A stretch of 64,000 bases of DNA from Flavobacteriales bacterium (lineage in GTDB: Bacteria; Bacteroidota; Bacteroidia; Flavobacteriales; Flavobacteriaceae), in contig JALVST010000123.1 in the NCBI GenBank assembly GCA_027024205.1, positions 1 to 64,000 of the forward strand. The letters are read 5' to 3'. Numbering within the stretch: position 1 is the stretch's first letter; each line of letters starts with the position of its first letter. Positions 13,659-58,712 of this stretch are shown in pieces. A model generated the notes under the pieces. The model was not told the origin of the DNA, searched no databases, and worked only from the letters and a program-made list of their open reading frames with translations. A program made the position numbers and the translations under genes.

Positions 13659-13730
13659 TTGAGACGGTGGCTTCGATACATCCGTCACCTAAAGTCGGCG
13701 GACACTCAACCACCTTTGCTTTCGTTTCAT

Positions 13731-13783
13731 AGGTCACTGAGTGATTTTTGCGACGCAGGAGCAAAAATTGTATCGAAGTGACT
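13731..13783 (-). repeat. ~53-bp intergenic element with AGTCACTT/AGTGACCT ends (copy 1)
   Basis: Reverse complement AGTCACTTCGATACAATTTTTGCTCCTGCGTCGCAAAAATCACTCAGTGACCT nearly matches 20838-20889. Confidence 0.8.
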
Positions 13784-13792
13784 GGTCGCACT

Positions 13793-20808: not shown

Positions 20809-20837
20809 TAAAATTTATTCATATTAATTTTTAACCC

Positions 20838-20889
20838 GGTCACTTTGATATAATTTTGCTCCTCACGTCGCAAAATCACTCAGTGACCT
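20838..20889 (+). repeat. 52-bp intergenic element (copy 2)
   Basis: GGTCACTTTGATATAATTTTGCTCCTCACGTCGCAAAATCACTCAGTGACCT. Confidence 0.8.
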
Positions 20890-21002
20890 GCTACGTATGT
20901 GTCTGAGTGCTGTGAGCGGAGCGAACAGTGTAACGAAGCAACAAGCACTTCAAGACAATCCCCTCCGGCGAATGCCGGATCGGAACCATCCAGTAACCAC
21001 TC

Positions 21003-26344: not shown

Positions 26345-26396
26345 GGTACGATTTTGTTCTTACGCCCTAATGTAAGTCAGGGTCACTCAGCGACCT
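26345..26396 (+). repeat. 52-bp intergenic element (copy 3, degenerate)
   Basis: GGTACGATTTTGTTCTTACGCCCTAATGTAAGTCAGGGTCACTCAGCGACCT; same length and similar ends as copies 1, 2 and 4. Confidence 0.6.
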
Positions 26397-58468: not shown

Positions 58469-58644
58469 AAATGTGAATTTTTAATGTCAAATTGATTTTA
58501 TATTTTTGAATTTTCAATTTCAATTCATTGCAAATTTACAATAAAATCGGAGAGAAAAAAGTTTATAAAGTTTATAATGTTTGTAAGGTAATAAGTAACA
58601 AGTTAATTGACTAATTGAGGAACGAGAAACAAGGAATTGAGGAA

Positions 58645-58697
58645 AGGTCACTTTATTGCGGTTTTGCTCGTTACCTTATAAAATCACTCAATGACCT
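58645..58697 (+). repeat. 53-bp intergenic element (copy 4)
   Basis: AGGTCACTTTATTGCGGTTTTGCTCGTTACCTTATAAAATCACTCAATGACCT. Confidence 0.75.
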
Positions 58698-58712
58698 AAT
58701 GTCCTTTATTTG

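Follow-up and report, generated by a model that had tools for sequence, protein, structure and literature searches.

Dispersed two-stem palindromic repeats of a Flavobacteriales genome are associated with small GIY-YIG nuclease genes

A short intergenic palindrome that recurs in the DNA of a Flavobacteriales bacterium raises two questions: what kind of element is it, and which enzyme, if any, made and spread it? The window (the whole stretch of DNA that was analysed, 64,000 nucleotides in length) had been described in an initial annotation as carrying four copies of a 52-54 bp element. Following a scan with a covariance model built from copies of the source genome (filters off, E-values calculated over the window), copies 1, 2 and 4 were recovered (E-value ≤ 3e-10), but copy 3 (26345-26396) was rejected at 12.2 bits (E-value: 0.33), its likeness to the element being confined to its TCACTCAGCGACC end. 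Two further members had been missed, and each lies head-to-head with one of the recovered copies. The members identified in the window are as follows:

13664..13716, minus strand: degenerate head-to-head partner of copy 1, separated from it by 13 bp (model R2 48.6 bits, E-value: 4e-12)
13730..13785, plus strand: element copy 1 (R2 72.5 bits, E-value: 2.6e-19; R1 69.2 bits)
20836..20890, minus strand: element copy 2, the reference copy of the initial annotation (R2 72.4 bits, E-value: 2.9e-19)
20896..20945, plus strand: degenerate head-to-head partner of copy 2, separated from it by 5 bp (R2 38.5 bits, E-value: 4.3e-9)
58644..58698, minus strand: element copy 4, solitary and diverged, with a partly broken inner stem (R2 42.5 bits, E-value: 2.7e-10)

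Read on its own strand, the element has the form TA GGTCACT GAG TG (ATTTTGC, loop, GCAAAAT) N GTAT CGA AGTGACC GG. The ends are inverted as previously claimed (GGTCACT...AGTGACC), and the nearly constant length that had also been claimed holds for the consensus of approximately 54 bp, although individual copies vary. Each element contains two nested stems, an outer stem (GGTCACT/AGTGACC) and an inner hairpin. Copy 1 pairs GGTCACT with AGTGACT in its outer stem and ATTTTTGC with GCAAAAAT in its inner stem, while the stems of its degenerate partner have been swapped with pairing retained (GGTGGTT/AGCCACC and TCCG/CGGA). The DNA fold of copy 2 has a z-score of -4.1 relative to shuffled sequences.

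The two-stem structure is shown by covariation across copies. Both stems covary, with 114 double-change cells (versus 24.1 in shuffles) distributed over 13 of 15 pairs, and 92.7% of cells are paired (versus 80.3% when shuffled and 26-54% when the partners are slid); as the alignment had been fitted to the model, these figures lean in the model's favour. Inner hairpins are exchanged whole with retention of pairing (TTTTTCC/GGAAAAA, TCCCGTCAC/GTGACGGGA and TCCG/CGGA), and the outer arms vary with compensatory changes (GGTCACT, GGTGGCT and GGTTACT). The internal loop is invariant, giving a core of CTGAGTG on one side of the hairpin and TGTATCGAAG on the other. The position of TGAG opposite CGAA, where the outer-stem motif CTGAG faces CGAAG, suggests a likely tandem G-A mismatch. 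Simple CTGAG-N-CGAAG hairpins were considered as an abundant form in the source genome and rejected, as just three were present in the DNA of this genome that was searched.

Rather than being limited to four sites, the repeat is dispersed throughout the genome and its sites differ among relatives. Approximately 74 copies were detected with the covariance model in the source genome (G000; 2.38 Mb in 151 contigs). When as many as three mismatches are allowed, the 20-mer GGTCACTGAGTGATTTTTGC has 19 matches in the same 2.38 Mb and the reversed control pattern has 0, so the repeat cannot be attributed to chance. Nearly all copies are intergenic based on a simple ORF call, both orientations and all gene arrangements are seen, and copies between co-directional genes are more often antisense (34) than sense (15; p = 0.009). 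Eight of 11 close neighbouring pairs are arranged head-to-head. With these copies being short, palindromic, intergenic, dispersed and often paired, at about 74 per genome, the earlier description of a very small REP-type element is apt.

Twelve of the 13 genomes of the genus carry the element (11-106 copies each). Few copies were found in other genera of the family, and none in other families of the order at the threshold used. An exact search for the core, using one genome per species, found it in at least 110 stretches; among the matches listed, titles include Flavobacteriales, Bacteroidales, Psychroflexus, Dependentiae/Babeliales, Neomarinimicrobiota, Patescibacteria/Peregrinibacteria and Leptospiraceae, most of these being metagenome-assembled genomes (MAGs) for which binning errors are possible. 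Several Dependentiae MAGs have matches on two or more contigs, with outer stems of their own.

At window site 1, relative G002 (locus L131) carries a different repeat, GTCATTTCGAACG...CGGAATGACAG, at the same place. Window site 2 is empty in several relatives, holds a half copy in G008 and holds a copy with a different inner hairpin in G007. This last copy may be a separate insertion; it shares the core, but its flanks align too poorly for it to be called orthologous. Because these species are about 80% identical, breakpoints at empty sites are not base-precise. A 54-bp copy was in no case seen to move.

A comparison of ORFs from the cross-phylum loci showed that small GIY-YIG genes recur beside elements in three unrelated MAGs; all other recurrent neighbours were scattered ordinary genes. 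A GIY-YIG gene is also present on contig C49 of the source genome, where it sits between two head-to-head element pairs; it is decayed, with a frameshift and two stops in the domain match. Three relatives of this gene sit amid many repeats in genome G001, and one of the three is broken; in G018, which belongs to another genus, core variants of the form TCGAGTG...TGTATCGAG flank a gene of this kind. Small GIY-YIG genes were not found in G008 and G010, two draft MAGs that are rich in elements. The protein is a GIY-YIG domain (PF01541, E-value: 1.3e-17) that matches 1zg2 in sequence (E-value: 3.1e-14), and the catalytic residues Y7, Y17, R27 and E64 are invariant in 37 of 37 sequences.

Hairpins of the CTGAG/CGAAG type lie within 350 bp of 26 of the 30 type-I GIY genes of the phylum, and on both sides of 14, as compared to 15.7% of random windows from the same loci. 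The motif occurs 122 times in 92.7 kb of GIY loci, versus 6 times after shuffling and 3 times in 63 kb around uvrC, while model R2 has 50 matches in the 30 GIY loci and 0 in 20 uvrC loci. In a model-free comparison, an exact repeat of at least 14 nt is common to both flanks of 44 of 76 small GIY genes (the other 32 have none), versus 13 of 1248 control ORFs drawn from element-bearing loci; for window ORFs the count is 0 of 66. Among 396 genomes of the phylum, with relatedness ignored, a strong type-I GIY match was found in 25 of the 37 with an R2 element and in 39 of the 359 without (p = 8e-14). Such repeats lie on either side of small GIY-YIG genes in Bacteroidota and, as described below, in Alphaproteobacteria, and MAGs from other phyla provide single examples.

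Different GIY-YIG subtypes occur with different repeats, although there are few cases per subtype. Type-I genes accompany the window's repeat in this clade. Type-II genes (L353 and L336) are flanked by GTCATTTCGAACG...GAGAAATCTC repeats, the kind found at window site 1 in G002, and type-III genes (L334, L340 and L358; also L355) adjoin tRNA genes with duplicated tRNA 3' ends. The tRNA-adjacent subtype is also seen in other genera (L326, L333 and L374), and at L334 the duplicated tRNA ends form a tandem array.

A related arrangement was identified among repeats that look like CGTC REPs. A 2013 survey (PMC3733652) reports CGTC REPs as mostly head-to-head dimers that have no transposase of their own, and treats their enzyme as an open question. 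In plasmids of Shinella (L430) and Rhizobium (L433), each small GIY-YIG gene lies between CGTCATCCTCGGGCTTGACCCGAGGATCCA and CGTCATCCCAGGGCTTGACCCTGGGATCCA repeats, which look like CGTC REPs (CGTC head, 9-bp stem, 5-nt loop and CCA tail). In Sinorhizobium (L427 and L429), CCTC-headed versions likewise lie on both sides of small GIY-YIG genes. The absence of a dedicated enzyme therefore does not describe L430 and L433, or the CCTC variant at L427 and L429, a handful of cases rather than a survey. The Shinella layout (repeat pair, GIY-YIG gene, repeat pair) is like that of the source genome with its decayed gene. Three other Shinella plasmids have the same neighbours and match over much of the intergenic sequence, but the GIY-repeat block is absent; in these few cases the difference is one of presence or absence with no direction given, and it could reflect loss instead of gain.

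Based on these results, we propose that a small UPF0213-type GIY-YIG nuclease (approximately 95 aa), and not a Y1 transposase, is the enzyme of a mobile family to which these REP-like repeats belong as non-autonomous members (probability roughly 0.7). The nuclease would recognise the folded or cruciform repeat and cut at or near it, and repair of the break would then place a copy of the pair at another intergenic position, sometimes together with the gene. Pairs that stand alone, as in the window, would be the gene-less products of this process. As the element-flanked GIY-YIG gene of the source genome is broken, the copies present here are probably now immobile relics. The data themselves show the structure, the dispersal, the association and the presence or absence of the block; cutting and copying are inferred. 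Several observations count against the proposal: the element-rich drafts G008 and G010 yielded no small GIY-YIG gene, 32 of the 76 GIY genes have no 14-nt repeat common to their flanks, one subtype adjoins duplicated tRNA ends instead, yhbQ and yazA have no repeats around them, no copy was seen to move, and the nuclease may have been carried along in DNA rich in repeats.

A Y1 HuH partner had been proposed for the repeat, and the hairpin could accordingly be an ordinary REP/RAYT element that was moved as single-stranded DNA by a Y1 transposase since lost from the genome. The short palindromes, the head-to-head pairs, the lack of target-site duplication and the orientation bias described above are all consistent with this, as is a gTAG-like 5' edge (in 74 copies, G in 39, T in 45 and A in 71, followed by G in 69), an edge that many copies from other phyla do not have. 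However, when the genome and the genus were searched with PF01797 and NF047646, and ORFs were compared across 80 element-bearing loci from other organisms, no fitting Y1 gene was identified and none flanked by the same repeats; no Y1 ORF at all was present in the 80 loci. The Y1 genes of the source genome are IS200-type TnpA genes and one RAYT-like gene, the latter amid another repeat. RAYT genes of the genus (L198, L199, L200 and L203) carry GTAGAGACGC...GCGTCTCTAC palindromes inside their coding regions, and one element adjoins a RAYT (L198, at 30 bp), a proximity judged coincidental because there is no copy beyond the gene and the gene carries the GTAGAGACGC palindrome. We consider a lost Y1 transposase improbable. 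It is more improbable still that the repeat is a MITE of a DDE-type insertion sequence with the GGTCACT arms as terminal inverted repeats. Inverted ends and near-constant length would suit a MITE, but target-site duplications were not above the level in shuffled flanks, and arms that vary with compensation around an invariant internal loop are the opposite of a MITE with conserved ends. Insertion sequence ends that might match the element had also been suggested; those of the IS200 copies are unlike it.

Strong covariation, mostly intergenic placement and an antisense-biased orientation could also describe a transcribed RNA element under selection (for example, an mRNA-stabilising 3' hairpin or an attenuator), in which case the GIY-YIG genes would be passengers that happen to lie in intergenic DNA rich in repeats. 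Against this, every gene arrangement and both orientations occur, and the repeat has no match to an RNA family in Rfam. Passenger genes, moreover, do not readily account for flank-shared repeats at 58% of GIY genes versus 1% of other ORFs in element-bearing loci, or for the occurrence of different repeats with different GIY subtypes, and we regard this explanation as unlikely.

The element resembles several known systems in part. Like GTAG REPs with their RAYT genes (REPtrons; PMC2817692, PMC3733652), it is a short, intergenic, multicopy palindrome that is often paired head-to-head, and the gene of its proposed enzyme has repeats of the family on either side. It differs in that the enzyme there is a Y1 HuH transposase and the one proposed here a GIY-YIG nuclease; in addition, its CTGAG/CGAAG internal loop is conserved and a second hairpin is nested inside. 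Head-to-head dimers are shared with CGTC REPs (PMC3733652), but the window copies are longer, have two stems and read TAGGTCACT...AGTGACCGG with a nested hairpin, without the CGTC (TGTC, CCTC) head, 8-9-bp stem, 4-5-nt loop and CCA tail. With REP-like behaviour, no RAYT partner and no CGTC head, the window copies represent a variant distinct from both groups. The partner protein belongs to the same fold family as UPF0213-type proteins (PDB 1zg2 and 1ywl; E. coli YhbQ and B. subtilis YazA). Unlike the partner genes, those for YhbQ and YazA look like single-copy host genes, and flanking repeats were absent at E. coli yhbQ, B. subtilis yazA and three beta-proteobacterial plasmid genes. GIY-YIG homing endonucleases of the I-TevI type (PMC1564403) share the catalytic domain, and spread by break repair is proposed by analogy with them; here, no intron, intein or extra DNA-binding domain was seen, and the genes lie between intergenic palindromic repeats.

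Bacterial genomes abound in palindromic repeats, a large share of which, notably CGTC REPs, had no known enzyme (PMC3733652). We see an even chance that orphan CGTC REPs and CTGAG/CGAAG hairpins belong to one widespread class of mobile repeats that is made and spread by small structure-recognising GIY-YIG nucleases, as a second, RAYT-independent route to REP-like repeats. No description of a link between GIY-YIG proteins and palindromic repeats was found in the full text of open-access papers, and a literature search by motif letters returned nothing relevant. If small GIY-YIG nucleases are the partners, a function would be found for a common protein family whose role is unclear, and a long-standing gap would become open to tests that use a short hairpin DNA and a protein of some 95 residues. 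The short intergenic repeats of many environmental genomes could then be interpreted as the output of a single kind of mobile system.

Other features of the source genome were observed during this analysis. The RAYT-like gene (L023, contig C133:18417-18923) encodes 196 aa and scores below the family cut-off; its neighbours look like type III CRISPR components, and tandem GGGCTCAAAATATTGAGCCC-type palindromes are present inside and after the gene. Two IS200-type transposase copies (L020, C112:12235 and L021, C89:101) have nearly identical ends. Degenerate short-period repeats (TTGATGAATTGAGGAA and GGTTATTTGGTTAATCGG) crowd the intergenic DNA flanking many copies of the element (e.g. L084, L089 and L091), and positions 4695-4727 of L089 (contig C6) correspond to a DUF805b RNA (RF02914) that scores above the gathering threshold.
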